Positions 22,641 to 62,636 of a stretch of 64,000 bases of DNA are shown one piece after another; the first letter of the stretch is position 1, and each line of letters starts with the position of its first letter. Where the stretch lies: NCBI RefSeq assembly GCF_052324685.1, contig NC_135211.1, positions 54,095,128 to 54,159,127 of the forward strand, written 5' to 3'. This DNA comes from Brachyhypopomus gauderio (lineage: Eukaryota; Chordata; Actinopteri; Gymnotiformes; Hypopomidae). Under the pieces are notes generated by a model. That model was not told the origin of the DNA and did not search any database. It saw only the letters and a program-made list of their open reading frames with translations. A program made the position numbers and the translations under genes.

Positions 22641-23080
22641 GAAATATTCACCAGAATATGGAGCATAGTAAAATGCATTTCATGACTGAAATATCTCTAA
22701 GATGCATAATGCCCACTGTGGTAGATGCATGGCTAATTGTAATTTACTGTGTTCAGAAAATCTATATTTGAACAAAACCTCTATTATTCTACTTATTAAT
22801 GTTGCTACTTGTGCATATGTTTTATTTAACTGAAAAGATGTTTATTGGTAGAAGGACTTTACAGTTCCTGAAGCACATGTGATTATATTGACCGTCCATC
22901 AGCCATTATGCGGTTTGTTATATTATATTATTATACTGACCGTGTCTGACCAATGCACCATAGTGCAAAACACAAATAATGAGGGGATATGACTAATAGT
23001 TGAAACATAGTGCCCTCTGGTGTTAGATATAGGTACTTCAGGGATGCAGCCTTAAAATTTGATTTCAATATTGATACAGG

Positions 23081-23219: not shown

Positions 23220-23549
23220 GATGTATTGATATATGTTAACCATACTGTACAGCGTTGTTATATCATATACAATTGCATTTAAACCTGCTGCAAAATATGC
23301 AACCTGAGCAGAAAAACCATGTTGTAGGAGAATAAGAGTTTAAACAGAGTGACTTATATTCATCAGAACAGAAGGATTTGAAAATGTCTCCACAATGTCC
23401 AGAGTTCCACCCTCATAATATTGTACATTATAACCATATAAAATCAAGGAATGGTTGCTTAAGAATAAAAGAAAAACCTGTATGTTGAGCCTAACAGAGT
23501 AAGTCAAAGAAGCCTGTTCTGAACCCTTTTGAGTATGAATAGTGTATGA

Positions 23550-23668
23550 ATTGGTCACGACACCTAACTGCCAGTGTGTGAATTGGACATGACCCCTAAC
23601 TCCCAGTGTGTGAATTGGATACGACCCCTAACCCCCAGTGTGAGAATTGGACACGACCCCTAACCCCC
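23550..23668. repeat. 32-bp minisatellite overlapping the 3' end of UBL gene A
   Basis: Units start at 23550, 23582, 23614 and 23646, exactly 32 bp apart, each like ATTGGACACGACCCCTAAC plus CCCCAGTGTGTGA. The last unit overlaps the Gly-Gly-stop codons of the gene on the minus strand. Unit B has only about two copies at the same place (27464-27518). Confidence 0.85.
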
Positions 23669-24565
23669 ACGGCACCTGTAGACGGGAAGGAAACATGCCC
23701 CAGGCATCACTCTCAGCTCCAACAGGGTCTGTGGACCTTGAACGATAACGCCATTGTAAACGAGGTCCATGTCTTCCATCTTCAGCTTCTGTTCCTTCAA
23801 CTTCTGCTTCAGACGCTCAATGGTGTCAGTGCTTTCCAGACTCAGGGGGATCTGGAGAATTATTAGATAACATTAGATAAACAGCATAATTAGCAATTAA
23901 AACATAAAACAATAAATCATGCAAGGACATTACAGGTCATGCTGGTATCACCAACTTGTAACACATTCTTTTATTATTCAAAGAGCTTAAAGATTTTCAC
24001 ATGGCAGTAAAAATGTAGTACACTAAACTACAGTTCAAAGTCAGTCCACTTTGAACACAAGAGACTGACCTCCCCAGTTTGTTACTTATATTGTGGACCC
24101 AAACAGAATCTATTTTCTAAATTTGAAATAAAAAGTTTGGGGGGAAAAAAAGAAAAAAATCACACAAAGTTTTATGTGCAGGGTAACTATAGTTTTCTAC
24201 CATATTCATGGTCAAATATACCTGGGTGCCACTGGAACTGTCAAATACTTTGATTGTAATTGGTCCAGACACAGGAGAATCAGCACCATTACAGGACAAC
24301 TCAATATGGCTGCTGTGTTTCAGATATTTTAAGTACCCATCAGAGTCAGCAGGATTTCTTTTGACTTGTGGTGTCACTTTAGATTTTGAGCTTTGAAAAG
24401 CAGTGAGCTGAGAGAGAGAGAAAAAGAGAGACTTTTGAAAATTCCTTTAAAATGCATTTTAACTAAATCAATAAAAAGTGTTTGAAAACAAGTTTGAATT
24501 TTATAGTGTAATAATAGAAAAATAAGTCATACCTTTTCCATTACTGGCTGAGTTTGAGTTGCCAT
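23660..24565 (-). CDS. Single-domain ubiquitin-like protein with C-terminal RGG (UBL gene A, 136 aa)
   Basis: Three minus-strand exons: 24565-24533, 24407-24222 and 23851-23660, all joined in phase 0 with GT-AG borders. Residues 1-58 (start MATQTQPVMEK) are an extension of unknown fold. Residues from about 60 form a ubiquitin-like beta-grasp: ITIKVFDSSSGTQ, IPLSLESTDTIERLKQKL, MDLVYNGVIV, then VYRCRGG and stop. This parallels ubiquitin's first strands, its SDTIE helix start and its LRLRGG end. Like FAT10 and unlike ubiquitin precursors, the diglycine is exposed without cleavage, so the product could be conjugated directly. Only one UBL is present, whereas ISG15 and FAT10 have two. Nearly identical to UBL gene B, its tandem duplicate. 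I know no name for it; role as a modifier is inference. Confidence 0.8.
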
Positions 24566-24653
24566 GTTGAGTCATTCACTGTACCACTCTGCATGTGTGC
24601 TAACAGCTGTCTGGTGCTGCGTTGGGTTTACCTATCATTTTTATCAATGCAAG

Positions 24654-24669
24654 CCAAAAGAGAAACCTC
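24654..24669 (-). promoter_or_regulatory. Interferon-response-like motif upstream of UBL gene A
   Basis: CCAAAAGAGAAACCTC lies about 90 bases upstream of the gene's ATG. On the minus strand it reads GGTTTCTCTTTTGG, close to the ISRE consensus AGTTTCNNTTTC with two departures. A matching motif holds the same place in gene B. This is a weak motif match and no proof of interferon control. Confidence 0.35.
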
Positions 24670-25570
24670 TGCCACACTGGGAATCACCTACAAAATCTCA
24701 TTGTTTATTTTGGTTATTCTTGTTAATCACGTGATCTGTAGGCGCTGCAACCAAAAAAGGACAATCTAATGAGAGACGTAAAAGACAGAGAGAGAGAGAG
24801 AGAGAAATAACACAAGCACTGATATATGAGCATATTTTGAATGCATATATAGAGATGAAACCAACAGCAGGGTTAAAAGGTTGTGCAGGGTTTATAAAGA
24901 GGTGAGGCATTTGACCCCGTGTACCCTGGGATGGCCCTGCCTTCCCAGTATCTCTGCACTGTGATTCTCTCATGTCCAGGTGTTTCTCTGAGGTGCTGAC
25001 ACTCCTCAGGGTCTCATCTCTGCCTTTCCAGACACTGTTTCTCTCCTGACCAGCAGGCATCTGTTTCCTTACGCTTCCATAACTGTAGTTAGCGCTCCTG
25101 CTAGCACTTGTTGATCTGAGCTTTCTTCTCCAGACTGCTGTTCATCAGCCCTGTCAACGTTTCTTTAAGAATCACAAAAGTGACGTGGAATCTCCTTCAC
25201 TGTCCGGTAACACGCACGCTGCCATCGGCCATGACAGAGATGCTGACACTGCTAACAAACAGTACACAAAACTGTATTTTACAGTATAATCATTGTAAAC
25301 TACAAAACAAAATTAAATTCAATGATTTACAGGGACATATACTGAAGATGTTCTTTCACCAAAACATGGAGTAAAACACATAGCTGAACTATCTCTAAGA
25401 TGCATAATGCCCACTGTGGTGGATGCATGGCTAATAGTAATTTACTCCTTTCAGAAAATCTATATAACAAAACATCTAATATTTTACTTCATAAATGTTG
25501 CTACTTGTTCATATGTTTTATTTAACTGAAAATATGTTTATTGGTAGAAGGGTTTTACAGTTCCTGAAGC

Positions 25571-26206
25571 TGTAGCGAACCCCCCCCCCTCCGAAAAAAA
25601 ATTGCTTCCTTTCCTAATTAACTGCAATAAATAAAAAATAAAAAACTGAGATGACAGTACAGCTTTAGAAACGCAACAAACAATAACACATGTACTAGAT
25701 AACTTCTTAAGCAAAATAAGGTTCCAACAAAATGAGGTTCACAGCTCAGTGTTCATCAGAAGCGGAATATGTAAACAACGCGCACGAGGACATAAAATGA
25801 ATGAATCGAAACTAGCTAGCAGTGGTGCTAACGACAGCTAGCGTCGCCACAGCGGGCGGAAATTATCATACAGTTAAGCCCGCCCACTAAGAGGGAAGAT
25901 ATGATTGGTCAATTTTACTGTCATTTGAAACTGGTATTGCGCTGAATTATAACTGCCAGGCCCTCTGTAAACGAATAGCGGGCATCACAGTCCTGATAGG
26001 GGGAGACACAGGCTCACAGGCTTCCACTTAACCCCTCACCTTCCAACACAGATTGAATAGACACGGGTGAATAATTTATTTGCTTATATTTCTGTAATTG
26101 TTTAGATGTCGATTGTCAAACTGTAAGTAGATAGGATAAATTATATATATTTATGTTTTAGGAATATTTTAGGCCCTCTGAGAAGTCGTAGACAAACAAT
26201 ACAATG
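25571..26206. mobile_element. 636-bp interspersed repeat with 9-bp target duplication (family unresolved)
   Basis: The repeat begins TGTAGCGAACCCCCC and is flanked by TCCTGAAGC at 25562-25570 and 26207-26215. The unfilled site, with one TCCTGAAGC, survives in duplication unit A at 22866-22874, which fixes the ends exactly. A second copy lies in glb1 intron 6 (about 40083-40760). No open frame or clear long inverted ends were seen. An 8-9-bp duplication favours a non-autonomous DNA element; a TG start also recalls a solitary LTR, but that would normally give 4-6 bp. Confidence 0.75.
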
Positions 26207-27509
26207 TCCTGAAGCACATGGGATTATATTGACCGTCCATCAGCCATTATGGTTTACTATGCGGTTGGTTGCACTTGCAGATTTTGGCCACTGGGTGGCA
26301 CGCTACAGGAATTTTAGTAGCATCCACTAAATTGACTGGTACAGCATGTAACATTTAAATCCATGAACATAGTAGATTACTGCTTTTAAATAACTGTCCA
26401 CTGCAGTGACCAGTATGTGGGAAATGGTTCAAATGACTCAATTCCTTGCAGTCCACTTTGCAGGGAACAGCTTGGGTATTTGGAATGCATTTACAGCTGA
26501 CTGCAGTTATACCAGCTCAGCGCCTGAACAAAGTGGATTGAAGCTTGACTGAGCTTCATAACATTAACTAGCACGTGAACAGAATATGGGCTAACAAATG
26601 TAAACTTTTCTAAGAAAGTGATAGGCCTAATATTAATGTTTCAAGCTTTCAACATTCTTAATACTAATCACTGAAACAGCACTTCATACATCTGACAAAA
26701 CTGACAAAAGGATCGGGAGCAGTTGTGTTGCTTTACCGTGTCGGACCAACGTATACACATTGTATTGCAAAATACGAATAATAAACGGATAGTTGACATA
26801 TAGTGCCCTCTGGTGTTAGGCAATGGTATTTCAGGGATGCAGCGTGATAATTATATAAAAAGGCTGTAAATTATGGTTTTAACCAATGGAAATATTTTAA
26901 TCTAATTTAATCCAATATAAATAAATATTTAAATATTTGCTCCCAGTTATCTATTGTCTAGCTACAGCGTATTTCATTTACCAAAGTTGAAAGTTGAAAC
27001 TAGCAAAGTTGGATAGCAAAATGTTTTTATTTGATCCCAGAATACCATCAGTGAAAAAAATAAATTAAAAACCACATTATTATTATTATAACCACAAATA
27101 CATAATATTTAAATTGACATTCAACCTATTAATGCCATCAAGTAAGTAAGTATATTTTTGGAACGTCCCATTACATTCTAACATTTTCTTCCATTGTATT
27201 TGGTCACTGTGGAACCACCAAGAGCTCATAATGATTTATTAAAGTTATAGAACAATAAGATTTCAAACAGAGAACAGTGACTTATATTCATCAGAACAGA
27301 AGGATTTGAAAATGTCTCCACAATGTCCAGAGTCCCACCTCTTTTATTATTATACCTTATAAACACTTAAAATCAAGGAATGCTTAAGAATAAAAGAAAA
27401 ACCTGTATGTTGAGCCTAACAGAGTAAGTCTAACAGGGTAACGTTTTGAGTAATGGTGTGTGAACTGGACATGACCCTTAACCCCCAGTGTGAGAATTGG
27501 ACACAACCC

Positions 27510-28304
27510 CTAACCCCCACGGCACCTGTAGACGGGAAGGAAACATGCCCCAGGCGTCACTCTCAGCTCCAACAGGGTCTGTGGACCTTGAACGATAACG
27601 CCATTATAAACGAGGTCCATGTCTTCCATCTTCAGCTTCTGTTCCTTCAACATCTGCTTCAGACGCTCAATGGTGTCAGTGCGTTCCAGACTCAGGGAGA
27701 TCTTATTGTAATTGAACATTAGATAAACAGCATAATTAGCAATTAAAACATAAACCAATAAATCATGCAAGTACATTGCAGGTCATGCTGCTTTTAAAGC
27801 ACCAACTTATAACATGCTTTTCTTATTCTAAGAGCTTAAAGATTTTCACATGGCAGTAAAAATGTAGTACAGTAAACTACAGTTCAAAGTCAGTCAGCGC
27901 ACTTTAAACATAAGAGACTTTAAACACTTGCCTCCCCAGTTTGCTACTTATATTGTGGACCCAAACAGAATCTACTTTCTAAATTTGAAATAAAATGTTT
28001 GGGGGAAGAAACAAAAAAATCACACAGAAAGTTTGTTTTATGTGCAGGGTAATTGTAGTTTTCTACCATATTCGTTGTCAAATATACCTGGGTGCCAGTG
28101 GAACTGTCAAATACTTTGATTGTAATTGGTCCAGACACAGGAGAATCGGCACCATTACAGGACAACCCAATATGGCTGCTGTCTTCCAAATATTTTAAGT
28201 ACCCATCAAAATCAGCAGGATTTCCTTTGACTTGTGGTCTCACTTTAGATTTTGAGCTTTGAAAAGCAGTGATCTAAGAGAGAGAGAAAAGGAGAGGGAG
28301 AGAA

Positions 28305-28343
<39 letters not shown>

Positions 28344-28463
28344 CTTTTGAAAATTCCTTTAAAATGCATTGTAAGTGTTTTGAAAACAAGTTTGAATTTT
28401 ATAGAGTAATAGTAGAAAAATAAGTCATACCTTTTCCATTACTGGCTGAGTTTGAGTTGCCAT
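27510..28463 (-). CDS. Single-domain ubiquitin-like protein with C-terminal RGG (UBL gene B, 136 aa)
   Basis: Exons 28463-28431, 28273-28088 and 27701-27510 on the minus strand, joined in phase 0, are the same size as those of gene A (33, 186 and 192 bases). The acceptor of exon 3 is AATAAG rather than CCAG, slightly weaker. The UBL part reads ITIKVFDSSTGTQ, ISLSLERTDTIERLKQML, MDLVYNGVIV, and ends VYRCRGG-stop. Differences from gene A are scattered substitutions, mostly in the extension (NPADFDGYLKYLEDSSHIGL against NPADSDGYLKYLKHSSHIEL), and all frames are open, so both copies look functional. GA microsatellites sit in intron 1 and upstream. Function as a ubiquitin-like modifier is inferred from the fold and exposed diglycine. 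Confidence 0.8.
28277..28336. repeat. (GA)n microsatellite in intron 1 of UBL gene B
   Basis: A mostly perfect AG repeat abuts the exon 2 acceptor. On the minus strand it gives a long CT tract that may serve as the polypyrimidine tract. Unit A has a much shorter version at 24410-24430. A second (GA)n lies upstream of the gene at about 28657-28700. Confidence 0.8.
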
Positions 28464-28552
28464 GTTGAATCATTCACTGTACCACTCAGCATGTGAGTTA
28501 ACAGCTTTCTGGTGCTGTGTTGGTTTTACCAAACAAGATATCGCTTTGCAAA

Positions 28553-28572
28553 CCAAAAGTGAAATTTCTTTC
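28553..28572 (-). promoter_or_regulatory. Interferon-response-like motif upstream of UBL gene B
   Basis: CCAAAAGTGAAATTTCTTTC lies about 90 bases upstream of the ATG, at the place of the gene A motif. It holds two GAAA-type cores (AAAGTGAAAT, and GAAAGAAATTTC on the other strand). Retention in both duplicates is suggestive, but they share recent ancestry, so conservation alone means little. Confidence 0.35.
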
Positions 28573-28655
28573 AGTCTGGAAATCACCTACAATAATTCAC
28601 TGGTGTTTTGGTTTTCTTATCTGATCAGCTGGGCTTGCAGCCAAAACATACACCT

Positions 28656-28703
<48 letters not shown>

Positions 28704-29069
28704 AGAACAAACTTAAACTTTATACATACTTATTTTGTATCTGCTTGCATTTATGTGTACATGTGTGGATAGATTCGGGCACCAAGAAACGAGCTGCTAG
28801 AAACAGATGGTGAGGTAAGAATTGATCAGGTCACCAAAACAGGTGCATTTGTGATGAATAAACAGACTGGTGAGCCCACAATTCTCCTCAAGACACATCG
28901 GGCTTTTCACATTACGTTGGCCACCGCATTATTAGTTTTGAATGAATGAGAAGGCCCCATTCTGCTCCTGGCATGGGCCTGCCTTCCCAGTATCCCAGTA
29001 TGTCCACATGTTTCTCTGTGGTGCTCTTCAGGGACAACGGTGACCTGGTACCATGATCATTGTTAACCC

Positions 29070-29850
29070 CGGTTACCAGACAGGTTTGAGTGATAAGGGG
29101 TCCCTGCAAGACAAGATCAGTAAAGACTCTCTGTCCAGGCCTGTCTCTCTAGTAGTGAGTTTACAGTGAGTCTCATGTAGATATTTAGAGCAATGTGGAC
29201 AGAATTAAAGGTTTTAAAAAGTGCTGCCTAATACTCTTTTTTATTTTACCCACATAACCCTGAGCAACCACACTATGTCAATACAGCCATGTGAATCTAA
29301 ACAAGTGTAAAAAGTACATTGCAACAAACAGATAACATAGCAACATAGCAGATCAGGATTAATATGTAGACTTAGTTGGGCTTGTCGGGGAGTTCTTTAT
29401 TTTGAACATTCACCCTTGTGTCTCCTGTGTACTGTTTTGATCTGTTCTGTCTGGTTACTTCCTCCCAGCTGGTTATTTGAAAGCGCTGTTTATAACTCGC
29501 TATAATTCCTCCCTCCCTCAGATGGACGACCACTACATTTTTGTTGTATTGATTTCTGGGATGGCTAGTCCTTCCACACTGTCCCACCACATTCTTGTGT
29601 TCTAACCTGTTAGACTTTTGTACACAAAGGTACAAAACGAAACACTGAGTGTGTAGTTTCACAGAACTAAGCATTGAGTCCAGGCAGAAAAAAAAGGCAG
29701 AAATGCTAATTATACACCTAGATTGTTCACTCAGCAGCTGTTCCATTAGAACTCCTACCTTGGGGCAACATCTCGTAAGTGTATAGCCTACTTATTGTCA
29801 TGCACTCTTAATGAACTAATTAATGATACCACAGCCTTTCTAAAACATGG
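29070..29850. other. Spacer between duplication unit B and the Tc1-like element
   Basis: A frame of 124 codons on the minus strand (29372-29746) has no recognisable family and no splice support. I see nothing else of note. Confidence 0.45.
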
Positions 29851-29855
29851 AAATA

Positions 29856-30716
29856 CAGTCCCTGACATAAGTTCTGTCGCTTATACATGTTGTGGAAACA
29901 AAAGCTTATAACCTGACTTTAAATTCATCAATTGGTTTTAGAAATGACTCATATGAAAGCTGAAACCCTCCCAAATGAGATTTAATTTACAAAAATAAAT
30001 TTGCTTCACTGCAGAAATATCGATCATTTAATGAACACAGAAAGGTCAGATTTTGGCAAGACAAAAGTCGTCGCCCACAGAAAGTAAGGTGAAAATCAAA
30101 CAAATAATTCACTTCATACAAATATATGCTTCATAACACTGGTGAATGACGTTATGGTGCTAGTAGAGCCATATTTAATATTTTGTGTGACTTCCACGAG
30201 CTTGAAGGACCGCATCCATGCAGTTCGACAATGATTCATACAATTTATTGATGAAGTCATCAGGAATAGCAAAGAACGCAGTCTTACACGCCTCCCAGAG
30301 TTCATCAAAATTCTTTGGTTTTGTCTTCCAAGCTTCCTCTTTCATCCTACCCTAAACCTGCTCAATGATGTTCATGTCTGGTGACTGAGCTGGCCAGTCC
30401 TGGGACACCTTGATCTTCTTCGCCTTGAGGAACTTTGATGTAGAGATGGATGTATGAGATGGAGCACCATCCTGCTGCAAAATTTGACCCCTTTTATGAT
30501 TGGTAATGTAAGATGTAGATAACACTTCTTGATATTTTAGGCTATGGATATTTCCTTCCACCTTGCAAATGTTAAGCACACCCCCATACTGAATGTAACC
30601 CCAGACCATGATCTTTCCACCACCAAACTTGACTGTTTTCTGGATGAATTTAAAGTCAGGTTATAAGCTTTTGTTTCCTCAACATTGATAAGCAACAGAA
30701 CTTATGTCAGGGACTG
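29856..30716 (-). mobile_element. Internally deleted Tc1-like (Tc1/mariner) element, 861 bp
   Basis: Inverted ends CAGTCCCTGACATAAGTTCT (29856) and AGAACTTATGTCAGGGACTG (ending 30716) are each flanked by TA. A second inverted block (AAGCTTATAACCTGACTTTA near 29900, and its complement near 30640) extends each end to about 80 bp. On the minus strand, 30609-30352 codes the middle of a Tc1 transposase, with MVWGYIQYGG, QQDGAPSHTS and DWPAQSPDMNIIEQ (second and third catalytic acid regions); degenerate C-terminal sequence follows to about 30170. The N-terminal DNA-binding part is missing, so the element cannot move by itself. It appears fairly young because the ends are well matched. Confidence 0.9.
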
Positions 30717-30719
30717 TAC

Positions 30720-32050
30720 ACTGCTGTGTCTGAGAAATGTCCATCAGCCCAGGACCCACCACTACGCCATTGGCTCCGTAAGTATTAATGCTGTGCAGAG
30801 GACGGCCCAAGCACCAAATAAGGTCCAGTCAGCAGTAGCATGGGCAGAGGGTATCTGTCAAATTGCACAGGCCAGATATGCTTTAGTAGTTATGCCCTTA
30901 TTTAATGCATCTATCAGACAGCCAGTGGGTGTAGGTTCTTCATTCAAGTGTGCTCATTCAAAAAGGGGAAAAAATTGTTTTGGTAAGCATACATAATAAA
31001 AGTGAAACTACATGGTTGTTGTTGACAACCTTGGGAAGACGAGGGAGTTTTCAGCTGCACACTGAAACTAAAACCTCTATGTCCTTGTGAGCTACCAAAT
31101 TCTATAAAGGACCAGTCATGGAGACACCCACCCCACCTTCCTCCACAAGTGTTGTATTGAAATCTACCAATTTCTGTGACTGTAGAGCCAGCAGCCCACA
31201 AGTCACTATGTTAGAATACGTGAGCCCACCATACCATCCTAACAAATGAGTAAAATCAACCTTCTGTTTGGTTTCCATGACCAGTGTTTATTAGCTTCCA
31301 TAGCTGTACTTATGTTTGCTTTTGATTTCATTAAATGCTTCAGTTAGTGTCTGCTTCTCTCTCTCTCTCTCTATCTCTCTCTTTGTTTGCATGATCTTCT
31401 TTCCAGACAGGGCCAAAACATCAACAACCACCCACATGGTGCTTAGTTATTTACAGAATGGTTTAATAGGAAATTTAAATGTAAAAATAAGTACATTACA
31501 CAAAATAAAAAGACATTGCCCAACAGTACCTTGACATTTACAGGTATAGAATGATGGTTTAGGAATGAAGAAAGAATAACTCATAACTCAAGAACAGATA
31601 CGCTTAATAATGTGAAGGTGACATTACAGAGTACATAAGGTGATTTGGTCATCCTGACTGCTGCCAAACATTAATTCTCATGAGAAACTGCTTTGAATTG
31701 ACTGTTTACTAATGCCAGTTCTTTCATCATTAATTTCCATTCATTAACCAAAATTATGCTGTATGGATATATTTGACAAAAATGTACAGTACATTTTGCA
31801 TAGTTGATTCAATCCTATTTGTGTAGCTTGCCACAAAGGATCTACAATATTGCACGCATAGAAACTTTTCCTTTAAATATAAAGTATAATTACACCCTGT
31901 GTGAATTAAGGGGTTACACTCACACACCTGAGACATATTTGCAGTACCACATACCCTGTGAATAAACGTACAGATCATTTCTATTCTCAGATGACAAAAA
32001 AGAAAGAAAGAAGGTGTCATGATAGCAATAATGAGTCACGGACATTACTG
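30720..32050. other. Spacer downstream of UBL gene C
   Basis: No gene is supported. A minus-strand frame near 31180-31010 has splice-like borders (CTCTACAG acceptor, CCCAAG then GT) but no family I recognise. (CT)n lies at about 31352-31382. Confidence 0.4.
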
Positions 32051-32054
32051 ACTC

Positions 32055-32632
32055 TCACCCCCCAGTGACTTTCTGAAAGGTAATAAACGTGGCCCCTGGC
32101 TTCACCCCCAGCTCCTTCATGGTCTTCTCCCCTGGGACGGGTTTGCCGTTGAAGGCGAGGTTCAGTTTTCCCTCCAACTCTGGTCTCCACTTCTGGTAAC
32201 GGCTCCGCAGCTTCGCGATGGTGTCCATGCTCTTCACTTTGAACGGGATGCAGGTGCCGTCATTGCCGTTGTAAACCCTGACCGAGGTGGTGTCGGGGTT
32301 AGACCGAGGGACTGGATCGTCATGGACGAGTATAGTGCTGTGCGTGGTGCGGTTGAACGGCTCATAGAGAGCATGTTGAACGTCTTCGCGTGGCAGCTGA
32401 AGAGCGTCTTCCCAGGTGTCTGTGGGGCACTCCATGAGACAGTGAGGTGGAAGACGTCCTGGACACCCATCCATCACCTACAGCAAAGACATGAACCCAC
32501 AAACCTCAGTTTTAAAGTGTTTATGTTTATTAAATACTTAAATACTTGTAATAAAAAATTGTTTTTAAAAAAGTACAAAGAACATACCAGTCCAGGATGT
32601 CCAGCAGGTCGAGCTACTATTGTGGCGCTCAT
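32055..32632 (-). CDS. Diverged ubiquitin-like protein with C-terminal TGG (UBL gene C, 155 aa)
   Basis: Two minus-strand exons, 32632-32588 and 32477-32055, joined in phase 0 (donor GTATGT, acceptor GCTGTAG). Residues 1-15 are MSATIVARPAGHPGL. About 60 residues follow with no recognised fold (contains TWEDALQLPREDVQ). From about residue 79 a ubiquitin-like domain runs to the end: TSVRVYNGNDGTCIPFKVKS, MDTIAKLRSRY, KLNLAFNGKPV, TMKELGVKPGATFITF, KVTGG and stop. The MDTIAKL and ELGVKPG motifs match the helix start and late turn of the fold. The bare diglycine is as in genes A and B, but sequence identity to them is low. Same strand and neighbourhood suggest an old paralogue. Exon 2 has higher GC than its surroundings. 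Candidate modifier; function inferred. Confidence 0.78.
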
Positions 32633-34591: not shown

Positions 34592-37500
34592 CTACTCTCC
34601 TTTCTTTGCTTTCTTCACAGCCGGGGCCGTTTTCTGCAGAACGGAAAGTGTGTCCCTCTTCTCGATCTTCCTCAGCTGTTTCTTCTTCATCCTCTTTAGC
34701 TTCGCCGTGTTGGTAATCTGAGGGTGACATCGAAACGGGGGAGCAGTGAGAAAATGATGAGATTAGAAATCAGGAAGTGAAACGGAGTCAGAGGGGTTAC
34801 TTGCACAGGGAACTCGATCACGTGCCACCAGACCAACACGGCAGGTTAGTGAAGCTGACAGTAGGAAAACACAGACGGACACGTGCATCACGTGAGCCCA
34901 TACACCACACGTGCGTCTTACCACTTGGACGATCTCTGCTTTCTTCTCGTTCTCTGCACGTCTCCTCAGGTTCTCTTCTCTCCTCTTCCTCATCTCCTGC
35001 GAGACAGAAAGGGCAGATGGGTATTTTTTTTTTGTTTGCAAAACATTATTCAAAGAGCTAAACTGTTTCGCATTTAAAAACATCCTAGCGCTCAAGGAAG
35101 TAATTCAAAAGTGAATCCCTGTCAGTGGTTAACAAAGAGCTGGCCTTTGGTCTTCATGTGTGCCAGTTCTTCCTGGAACACTGCAGTCCAAGAAGGGCCA
35201 CCACTATCTTAAACAGCCACTGCTTTTCAGTTTTCACTTTAAAACCAAATTTGAACTGTGTGGAACATTTTCCCATGAAACAAAAATTTTTTCAGAACAA
35301 AAATGCTCAAATAGAGCTGCTCTGCATGTCTATGCAGGGTACATTATAGCATTAATCAAATATGAACCTTTTCTGTCTTTCTTTTTGAATCCCACACAAC
35401 ATATTTTGTAAGGGCTAAGAAACAACAATGGGGAAACACCAAATGTATTTGCTTTGCCTCTGTTATTTGTACAGCTGACTGGACAAACAGCAGGTTCAGG
35501 CACATCCTCCTCCACACGTGCCATCAGGTAATCCCCTAAACTTTCAGAATCCTTCATGCTAATGATGCGTGTGGCAGGAAAGCTCTCCATATGTGACAGT
35601 ATATGACCGAAGAAAGTAGTTAATAATTAATCAATAACCCATCAACAACTTTTAAATGTGCCGATTTATTGAGCTTATAACCTGGGTCTGAATTTACTGC
35701 TCCATTTTGCCCCCTAGTGGAATACTATAGAGAGTAGCTCTTTTTCCACCATTTGTTATGAAGATTCTTTCAGTTCAGTTCTGGCCCACAACATGATTAA
35801 TTTAAAACATTGTAGATTCATTTGGTGGGCTAAATAAAAATTGCTATATTAGAAAAAATTTATGACAATATCTTTAATAAATCCTGCCTGAAATGTAAAG
35901 TCAATCTCAGCTTAAGAATCCTGCAATCCTGAGAGTGACACTGGACAAGTGTTGAGGAAAAGCCTCCCATTCTCAGAGGGACAAATGGAAATACTTTGCA
36001 CCCTGCCTTTCTGGAGGAGAGGATCCAATTGAGCTGGTGGCTCCACTGTGTGGTGCAATTGAGTTATGACATAATATTGGGAGTACTGTACTAAGAAAAA
36101 TCATGGATTGTAATAGCAGAGACGAGCCACGAGGCTTCGCTGTATTTTATAGATTTGCAATTAATAAACGAACATGATCATTTGAGATCAAACAGGGCAA
36201 GAAATTTGTCAAATTCTAAACAGGTTTTCCTCAAGTTCATTTAATACTAAATATAAATGTACAGCTTTCTGTATAATATGTTGTTCTGTTTTGTTGTTCT
36301 GAACCCAAACTTGGTTCTGTATCCTAGGTATGTCAGTTGAGGTCAACGCTGGATTAAAAATTAGGCAATTAAATGCATCCTGAATGAAGATTAGACAGAC
36401 TTTGTGGGTCCAGAGTCTTAAATTGCAACAGACGCAGCCATGAGCATGGTAGTGGGGGGGAAAGTGGACCTGACTACCCAGGGCCCAAGTAGGGAGAGGG
36501 GCCCATTTTGATCATGTGCCTCGTTTGGCATTTATAGGGGCCCACTGACATTGAGAGTGTACAGGGCCCAGAATTTGCTGCTACACCCCTGGATGCAGCG
36601 TCACGCGCCCCATCAGTGTCACGCGCACGCACCTCTTTCTCTCTGGCCTTCTCGTCTTTGAGCTTCTGGCTGTATTGTTTTACAATCTCCTTCTCCCTCT
36701 TGGCCTCCATCTTCTTCTGCCAGGAGCTGCGCAGGGGCTTGTCTTGCAAAACAGCCGAGAACCTACGAGACGAACGCAAGCATAAGGTCAAGATAGTTTT
36801 CTTATAGCAAGAAAGAAAGCGCTTGAGGTAAGACCACAGATGGTATTTGGATGCGATGTCATAGCGGAGGAAGTGTCAACAGGCCTGGTGAAGATGCACA
36901 TGGAAATATCTTCTGCTTTTTGTTCAATAGTTCAATAATTATGTACAATACCTCTTTGGCTCTTTATATCCTATATGTTTTTTAGTATTTATTATTAGTC
37001 TAGCTTCTATTACTGTTATGATGCTGCTGGAATCTTAATTAATCTTAAGGGAGGGATGCTTGAATGGATGGATTCCATCCATCCATCCATCGTGTTTGAG
37101 ATCAACTATGCAAAACGAACTCGCTGTGGTGGACCGTCAGTGTCCACCAAGTCGTGCAAACCACTGACTGCGTATACATGTTTATGGTGAACACACTGAA
37201 TTAAAAGTTTCAATCATGTGTCCGTGCAACGTGTACTAACACGATGGTAAATATGCCATGGTAAATAAATAATAAAAACGTCAAAACGTCTCACTCACCT
37301 TTGCTTATTACGGTCCTTCCACACCCGACCGGACTTGGGTTTCCCGAGCGGTACCATCCTAATTCCTTTCTCCCTGGACTGTGAACGCCTTCTCTTCCTG
37401 CTGCTTTTGTGCGTGACACTGGAGACGTGCTCGTCTGGCGTGCCGTCCTGGTTCTGGCCGGCCGGATCAGACTCCAACGTGGCTCCGCTACACGACACTG

Positions 37501-38025: not shown

Positions 38026-40117
38026 ATGGACTTCACAAAAACACAGGCGATGTTACTGCTGCTGTGCGGTATTACACTTCCAGTAAGTCTTGACAGGTCG
38101 CTCATTTTAATGTGCGGGGGTTTTCAGTTCTTCGGTATTTCATTAATTTAACGTGAATTTACTTGTTTTTATTATTGGGTTGATCTAACTATACACCCAA
38201 TAATACACCCAGTTTAAGTAGTACATGTAGGCACAGTCACTGAGGTTTGAGCGCACGTATTTAAATGAGTTGGTATCCGAGATTTTGTGTGAATTTACGA
38301 ACTGAAATTATCAAAGTCTGCTCATTGTTGAATGGTAAATAGTCAACAGACACTGATACGTTGTTTTACCATCCGTATCTTTCTCGAAAAGTGTTGTTCT
38401 GGAGATGAGTGCGTTGTCTGGATATAATTGTAGCGGCACAAAAGCGATGAACTGTAAGCAAAACTCAACAAACCTGATGTGGTCTGTCATGTTGCTGTCT
38501 TGTGACCTGTCGTAGGGCGGTGTAAAATAGACCTTTCAAGTCAGCCGCCTGTTGTCCTTTAAAACTGAACATAACTTGGAAGTTACTGCTGAATACAAAG
38601 AGAGAATTTAATTCTTAGGAATTGGATAAATAATTTCAGCTTTTTTTCTGATATCATGGCTGTAAATCTCATGTGTGTACTCTCTAACAGTTTGCCACAG
38701 CTGGTCGTAGTTTCACAGTGGACTACAAAAACGACTGCTTCCTCAAAGATGGAGAACCTTTCCGCTACATTTCTGGCAGTATCCACTACAATCGGGTCCC
38801 TAGGGTCTACTGGAAGGACCGACTACTGAAGATGTACATGGCTGGACTCAACGCCATTCAAACGTAAGCAGATGACTCCCTAATTATGTGGGTGTTTGTG
38901 TTTGAGAGAACATGTTGTAGTTCCATTGTATTTCGCTCTAATGCTTAGTGCTGCTTCAGACATGTACATATTTTTCGCTGCAATAAAAGAGGTGAGCCCA
39001 CACCTCTCATCTGCCTCTCATGAACTAAATTTTTCCCTCCAGGTACATACCGTGGAACTTCCACGAGCCCGCACCAGGCCTCTACGACTTCAAGGGAGAC
39101 CGAGACCTTGTGTCCTTCCTGCAGCTGTGCCAGGACCTCGGCCTGCTGGTCATCCTGCGTCCGGGCCCGTACATCTGCGGCGAGTGGGACATGGTGAGAA
39201 AGGGCGGGGACACACCTGGAGAGGACAGAAGGGAATATGGTCTAAGACGGCCAGGACAACCAAGGACTGCTGAGTGTGCTTCATTTAGATGTCATGAAAT
39301 GTTTTATAACTACAACCTGATTTATGTTTTTGGTTAATCAAGGGAGGATTGCCTTCCTGGCTGCTGAAAAACAAGGACATTGTCCTTCGTTCCTCAGATC
39401 CAGGTAGGACTGTCAAAGTGAATGATTAAATCAAATGCAGCATTCAGATGTATTTCGCGATGCGGTTCGCTGAGGTGATTTGTTCCTGACTCGTAGCACT
39501 TCAGAACTCTTTCTGGTTTAGACTACATCAGAGCCGTGGACAAGTGGATGGGGAAGGTGTTGCCCATGATCAAGCCCTTCCTCTACCAGAATGGTGGACC
39601 CATCATTACAGTTCAGGCGAGTCTGCTGGATAAACTTTCATTTACAAACGGTACTTGCAGTCAGAGGAAAGTCAAAACAAAACTGTGTTCTGTCTGTATT
39701 TTACCCTGAATGAGCTACCAACCTCTCCTTCAAAGAATTGTGATTTTTGGCATCCATTTTCTGTTCGTGTTGAAAGTGTCTCGGTGACGTGGTGTCCACA
39801 GGTGGAGAACGAGTACGGGAGTTACTTCGCCTGCGACTACAACTACCTCCGCCACCTCGCCAAGCTGTTCCGCTCTCACCTGGGGGAGCAGGTGGTGCTG
39901 TTTACCACAGATGGTGCGGGCAAGAGCTTCTTGAAGTGCGGGGCACTGGAGGACGTCTACGCCACCGTGGACTTTGGGCCTGGTGAGGAGGAACAGCCTT
40001 CGCTAACTCCACAGTCACAAGTCAGAGTGTCTGGGTTTTTCTTCTCATGCAGACAAAAACATTTAGCCTCTTTCTGCACCAGTAGCGAACCGTGACCATT
40101 AAACCTGGGCCCGCTAC

Positions 40118-45161: not shown

Positions 45162-45604
45162 TTGTGTCTGTTATAGAGGAAGAAAGATTCGAGTCATTTC
45201 AGCGCGATTAATTACTTTGCTGGTTGATCGATTACCACTGTAGTCTCTTTAGTATCCGAAATGTGTTTTTCTGTCATTGTTTCAGCTGTGGTATCTGCAC
45301 TGGAAGACGAGAAGACCGGGACTTACCGATGTCAGATCGTCCTCGTCTTTAAATATGAAGCAGTGATATTTGCCTAGCTGGAAAACACATCAAAATGATC
45401 AGAAATCTCCTCATAAATTCTTAAAAGGCTCTCACTTATCTAATGTACTACCATCAGTATAGCCAATTAATGGCTCAGCCTGCACTCACAAATTCATAAT
45501 TAATTTATAAAGGCCAATATATTGTAGGCTGTAGGGAAGTCAATTAGACACCCTGCCCATTCCACTGCTGTACACAGGACTTGCTAAATATTCCTTTTGG
45601 AAAA

Positions 45605-46915
<1,311 letters not shown>

Positions 46916-57000: not shown

Positions 57001-57575
57001 CTACATTCATAATGCAGTATTTTTACACACAACAGGAAGATTTAGTAAGGGTTTAATGGTCTAATACTGACGAGACCCTTGCAAAGACCCTTCTGTATTG
57101 TTCCAGAATTTAAATTAAATTGAAATTAATACAAATATTGCCCGTTACCACACGTTTACGAGAGAGAGAGAAAGAGAGAGAGAGAGTTTTCCCCCAGTAC
57201 GTTTTTCTTTGGTGCTCTGATTCTGATTGTCAGCTCACTCTCCCCTTTTCTGTGGATGCATCTGACGGAGCGCAACAAATACCTATCCGAGAACCAAGCA
57301 CCCTCAAGTACACGGGAATGTCTCCTTATCCTTAATAGTTTTTAACGAGCTTATTCTGCTCAGGAGAGACTACAAGTGTCCGTCTCTGCCTACGGTGCTG
57401 GTTAACTTAACTTTGGAGAGAAATCTCCCATTTGGAGAGATGGAAAGACGCACTTGCGAAACGGATATGTAAAAAAACAACAAAAAATTGAACCTCTTTT
57501 TTTCGGTAGACAGATCATTCTGTTCGCGGTATTCAAAGCAAAGTAGCAGAAATAAGGATAGGGGAGAAGATCAGC

Positions 57576-62636
<5,061 letters not shown>

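Follow-up and report, generated by a model that had tools for sequence, protein, structure and literature searches.

A small, locally duplicated family of single-domain ubiquitin-like proteins with bare Gly-Gly ends, predicted to be conjugatable, in the genome of Brachyhypopomus gauderio

Vertebrates possess few conjugated ubiquitin-like modifiers. FAT10 requires no processing, and ATG12, built from one ubiquitin-like domain (UBL) and an N-terminal extension, ends in a single glycine, which is used without processing, and has ATG7 as its E1. According to excerpts of the respective papers, FAT10 consists of two tandem UBLs (PMC12355090) and SUMO precursors carry a short peptide past the Gly-Gly, which needs to be removed (PMC3472776). 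The present study deals with three neighbouring genes, A, B and C, in a stretch of 64,000 nucleotides from Brachyhypopomus gauderio (NC_135211.1, positions 54,095,128-54,159,127; hereafter the window, to which coordinates refer), each of which encodes a single UBL behind an extension and stops directly after Gly-Gly. Put most cautiously, they form a small family that arose by local duplication and encodes proteins with one UBL and a bare Gly-Gly end, most likely conjugatable. The fuller reading, in which A, B and C constitute one family of single-domain UBL modifiers with divergent extensions and a ready-to-use Gly-Gly end, is given a probability of about 0.5. Gene models, UBL homology, a fold model of C, Gly-Gly ends, tail residues and shared ancestry were computed here, and from the sequences we infer what is said below on expression, activation, conjugation, partners and purpose of the three proteins. 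The design as such, one UBL with an extension and an unprocessed terminal glycine, is not unique, being shared in principle with ATG12.

Exon models were drawn from sequence alone, with base-for-base placement on the minus strand. Gene A opens with a short exon, which begins with ATG and comprises 11 codons in phase 0 (24533-24565; donor AAG/GTATGA); exon 2 (24222-24407) contains the remaining extension and the first beta strand of the UBL, exon 3 (23660-23851) the remaining UBL as well as RCRGG and the stop codon. Gene B follows the same plan with an exon 1 (28431-28463) of the same sequence as that of gene A, an exon 2 located base for base (28088-28273) and an exon 3 (27510-27701) which likewise closes with RCRGG and stop. 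Gene C has only two exons, the first with ATG and 15 codons in phase 0 (32588-32632), the second with most of the extension and the entire UBL, followed by FQKVTGG and stop (32055-32477). The products of A and B both comprise 136 amino acids and share the C-terminus VYRCRGG, that of gene C comprises 155 and ends in FQKVTGG. The extensions of about 59 (A, B) and 78 residues (C) agree with the 58-78 residues given in the original prediction, whose span of 23660-32632 runs exactly from the gene A stop codon to the gene C start codon. GT-AG borders were found in all five introns, and a short phase-0 first exon is common to A, B and C; the UBL is interrupted by an intron after its first strand in A and B and lies within a single exon in C. 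The one TAG in the match to gene B exon 2 is not part of the exon but belongs to the acceptor of the adjoining intron (TTAG). All three genes look real by these models.

The PF00240 profile of Pfam, with a curated cut-off of 25.4 bits, was matched by protein A with 35.0 bits (E 1.2e-8, amino acids 61-125), by B with 31.9 bits (E 1.1e-7, amino acids 61-125) and by C with 29.6 bits (E 5.8e-7, amino acids 83-147). A single such stretch was present in each, which upholds the earlier claim of one UBL behind an extension. Predicted structures were also expected to display the beta-grasp fold, and this was found for protein C, the one to which modelling was applied. Residues 1-80 of C yielded no credible match in the PDB (best E 0.86), and the extension of A was compared with the PDB as part of the whole-A query.

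The stop codon directly follows Gly-Gly in three of three genes (YRCRGG, YRCRGG and QKVTGG), leaving the Gly-Gly exposed, as had been claimed beforehand for RCRGG, RCRGG and KVTGG; A and B, being 91% identical, count as one observation of this end, not two. At the positions aligned with ubiquitin 72 and 74, A and B carry Arg/Arg and C carries Lys/Thr. Protein C furthermore has Phe-Gln at positions 70-71, as in SUMO2, resulting in a tail of the form F-Q-x-x-T-G-G. Lysine is absent at ubiquitin positions 48 and 63 in A and B, and C keeps it at 48 only. A 32-bp tandem repeat in four copies (23541-23669) extends into the last codons of gene A, Gly-Gly and stop; an accidental origin of this end in A and B from the repeat was rejected, because gene C ends in Gly-Gly-stop too and no repeat of the 32-bp type was seen past its stop codon, where inspection was by eye and not by repeat finder.

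Identity amounts to 91% between A and B and to 27% between A and C over the full length. Searches of the 797-Mb assembly were run exon by exon, and only the best candidates were scored. The gene A query returned 16 matches (16 of 16 candidates scored), namely the A and B exons, C at E 3e-8 and polyubiquitin at E 1.2 or worse, and the gene C query four matches among five scored candidates: besides C itself and its first exon, these were A (E 0.0011) and B (0.05). The local duplication originally proposed is supported. Out of 37 PF00240 matches in the genome, 15 were read as frames, 11 were taken by place as polyubiquitin repeats, two were B and C and nine were left unread, and within these bounds the genome appears to hold three family members. 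Among the 15 frames read, only that of an ISG15-like gene stops immediately after Gly-Gly. Relatives were confirmed neither among 45 pattern matches in viral contigs nor among 77 in a genome contig collection; neither collection is well suited to finding genes of fish.

Between A and B, 16 of 411 coding positions differ (12 nonsynonymous, four synonymous) without indel or stop codon; of the 192 positions in exon 3, five are changed, as against 44 of 475 in the aligned introns (45 of 475 with eight indel events in a separate alignment). The reading frame was thus kept, and the exons changed more slowly than the introns (Fisher p 0.002). The stronger argument for function is the older pair, A and C, which retained the UBL core and the Gly-Gly end; to keep both at 27% identity is more than chance would give.

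In a small local BLAST comparison, the scores of protein A were 56 bits with C, 40 with NEDD8, 35 with ubiquitin, 25 with the ISG15-like protein of the same genome and 18 with human FAT10, those of protein C 56 bits with A, 39 with SUMO2 and 27 with ubiquitin. Shuffle z-scores concurred; with ubiquitin they were 8.7 for A and 7.1 for C. Among the proteins compared, ubiquitin and NEDD8 are the closest relatives of A and B outside the family (26-28% over 68 amino acids) and SUMO2 that of C (28% over 81 amino acids). A and B carry Arg72 and Arg74 as ubiquitin does, but differ from ubiquitin and NEDD8 in the 59-residue extension, in Asp42 and in the lack of Lys48 and Lys63, and they are neither fusion nor repeat precursors. 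SUMO2/3 resemble the family in the single UBL behind an extension and C in particular in the tail FQ..TGG, whereas gene C differs in having no peptide past Gly-Gly, Lys at position 72 and an extension of 78 residues. In a tree of ten domains, all of them short, C joined SUMO2 (support 86) with A and B nearest to that pair, and these four stood apart from the domains of ubiquitin, NEDD8, ISG15 and FAT10 (95); by BLAST, however, C is nearer to A than to SUMO2 (56 as against 39 bits).

If the three proteins are modifiers, they would be made without a C-terminal peptide to cleave, and the exposed Gly-Gly would be adenylated by an E1, handed to an E2 and joined to lysines of target proteins. For A and B a ubiquitin-type E1 (UBA1, UBA6 or UBA7) would be the most likely activator because Arg is kept at ubiquitin positions 72 and 74; for C the SUMO E1 (SAE1/SAE2) would be more likely, because its tail is SUMO-like and none of the compared proteins outside the family comes closer to it than SUMO2, although we assign it with less confidence. 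The extension could serve in recognition, an arm of the kind present in SUMO and ATG12. A search of the genome with E1_UFD gave two matches at one locus, exon-wise searching being too insensitive to count E1 genes. That one cluster of lineage-restricted, ready-made UBL modifiers, with ubiquitin-type tails in A and B and a SUMO-type tail in C, feeds two conjugation pathways, its paralogues having diverged in their E1 address, is a rather improbable extension of this scheme. Adjacent paralogues with ubiquitin-like and SUMO-like tails would offer a natural test of how the last residues set the choice of E1, and a further bare-Gly-Gly modifier family, if true, could be put to a direct test in fish cells.

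Several points weigh against the reading of A, B and C as modifiers. UBL proteins can function unconjugated. Ubiquitin Arg42, a further E1 contact, is replaced by Asp in A and B and by Asn in C, Lys72 of C matches neither SUMO (Gln) nor ubiquitin (Arg), and the final four residues of C, Gly-Gly included, have a predicted local distance difference test score (pLDDT) below 50 in the model. Real UBL proteins acting unconjugated, as adaptors or by binding the proteasome or other partners, with a Gly-Gly that is inherited and unused, would be in keeping with the loss of Arg42 in all three proteins and with the state of the ubiquitin hydrophobic patch, which survives only in part in A and B, where Val70 is unchanged but Ser stands for Leu8 and Val for Ile44, and is gone from C, where the three residues are Asn, Ala and Phe; TINCR, described as lacking Gly-Gly and as bearing a short, basic extension at its N-terminus (PMC10006087), would provide a parallel. 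We nevertheless consider it unlikely, as A and C both stop exactly at Gly-Gly at 27% identity, which would be hard to keep in an unused end. Other adverse points concern A and B. The acceptor of gene B intron 2, AATAAG, is weak, with a pyrimidine fraction of 0.50 (gene A counterpart TTCTCCAG, 0.62), so that splicing of the gene B transcript may go wrong there. In the 600 bases past its stop codon gene A shows neither AATAAA nor ATTAAA, gene B three such signals and gene C one (at 588). With nonsynonymous and synonymous divergence (dN and dS) between A and B at 0.038 and 0.044, and with five nonsynonymous changes and one synonymous change in the UBL, nothing points to constraint on the amino-acid sequence after A and B had separated; gene conversion could be the source of a dS that is low relative to the introns. 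Together with a transposon remnant between B and C, the weak acceptor, the missing AATAAA/ATTAAA and the dN/dS near 1 would suit B, and possibly A, as a decaying or recent copy with little or no function, while C, or A and C, works. Such decay, which would be compatible with a modifier function of the remaining genes, is possible if somewhat doubtful, given 411 coding bases without stop or indel beside introns with eight indel events, and an exon 3 that differs less than the introns do.

Descent of A, B and C from ISG15 or FAT10 by loss of one UBL has in its favour the bare Gly-Gly, as in FAT10, and the resemblance of YRCRGG, the tail of A, to LRLRGG. FAT10 also shares the cysteine in the tail, and ISG15 the R-x-R-GG tail of A and B. 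ISG15, however, has two UBLs and ends in LRLRGG, where each of the three proteins contains a single UBL and the ends are YRCRGG, YRCRGG and QKVTGG, and a separate ISG15-like gene is present in the genome (C3:6339489-6339941; 157 residues inside a 183-codon open frame), a label that rests on its two UBLs and LRLRGG end. Likewise, the one UBL of A, B and C shows low similarity to either domain of FAT10, for which the human sequence was used throughout: z-scores to both domains in both directions ranged from 1.5 to 5.2, those to UBL2 were 4.0 (A), 5.2 (B) and 4.5 (C) as against the higher values to ubiquitin given above, UBL2 itself scored 12-13 to ubiquitin, and BLAST E values were 20, 37 and 1.7. 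Human FAT10 matched the genome 13 times, chiefly at polyubiquitin and weakly at the ISG15-like gene; among these matches, which were judged by place and not all read, we recognised none as a two-UBL locus of FAT10 type. Nor were traces of a lost first UBL recognised, the extension of A being only 59 residues long and the first 80 residues of C without a PDB match better than E 0.86, and the ten-domain tree, albeit from a short alignment, grouped A, B and C with the domains of neither family. The comparison with ISG15 and FAT10 suggested with the original prediction thus left neither ISG15 nor human FAT10 as the nearest relative by BLAST or z-scores, and we hold descent from either to be very improbable. 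There is, by contrast, an even chance that counterparts in other fish already bear a name, through annotation or even a description, which would be compatible with the modifier family: gene C, with its simple two-exon structure, would be picked up by automatic annotation, and a named fish gene could exist beyond the sequence comparisons, which among eukaryotic collections covered this genome and the PDB, whereas no description of such genes was found in the open-access literature, among the papers listed.

The innate-immune role proposed at the outset did not gain support. Consensus motifs of the interferon-stimulated response element (ISRE; GAAANNGAAA), the gamma-activated site (GAS) and NF-kB were found within 1 kb upstream of none of the three start codons, a crude scan by consensus only, which upstream noncoding exons may escape and which leaves distal elements outside. 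In the ISG15-like gene as control, 977 bases contained one ISRE (GAAACCGAAA, at -414 from the start codon) and no GAS or kB motif; with a density of 0.094 such motifs per kb across the window, this ISRE could be due to chance, and the promoter test is accordingly weak. Local duplication by itself says nothing about immunity. In the parts consulted, a 2026 review of fish interferon-stimulated genes treats ISG15 as the UBL case and does not contain the terms FAT10 and ubd (PMC13030082), and a study of salmon ISGylation reports other ubiquitin-like genes, clustering with ubiquitin genes, as not significantly induced (PMC12234341).

Between B and C lies a transposon remnant (29854-30718) with 76-bp inverted repeat arms, 95% complementary, and with a DDE_3 transposase fragment (30355-30660), presumably Tc1-like, that adjoins and in part overlaps these arms. 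A direct repeat at 22681-22874 and 25379-25570 has a spacing of about 2.7 kb, and because this differs from the 3.85-kb spacing of A and B, the history of the region may include more than one duplication event. To the left of the cluster, a 93-bp (31-codon) tandem repeat at 1651-1932, whose plus-strand consensus reads Thr/Ser-rich and mucin-like, may belong to a mucin-like gene. Pfam matches were obtained in four of ten open reading frames of the window that were scanned. To the right, exons of a glycosyl hydrolase 35 (39029-39334, E 1.7e-21) and of a rhodopsin-type receptor (57510-57944, E 5.1e-26) were recognised. A basic, lysine-rich open reading frame on the minus strand (36477-36875), which we take to be CCDC86-like, matched Cgr1 below the curated cut-off (E 8e-4), and a probable membrane protein exon on the plus strand (45548-45940), without Pfam match, is presumably claudin-like.
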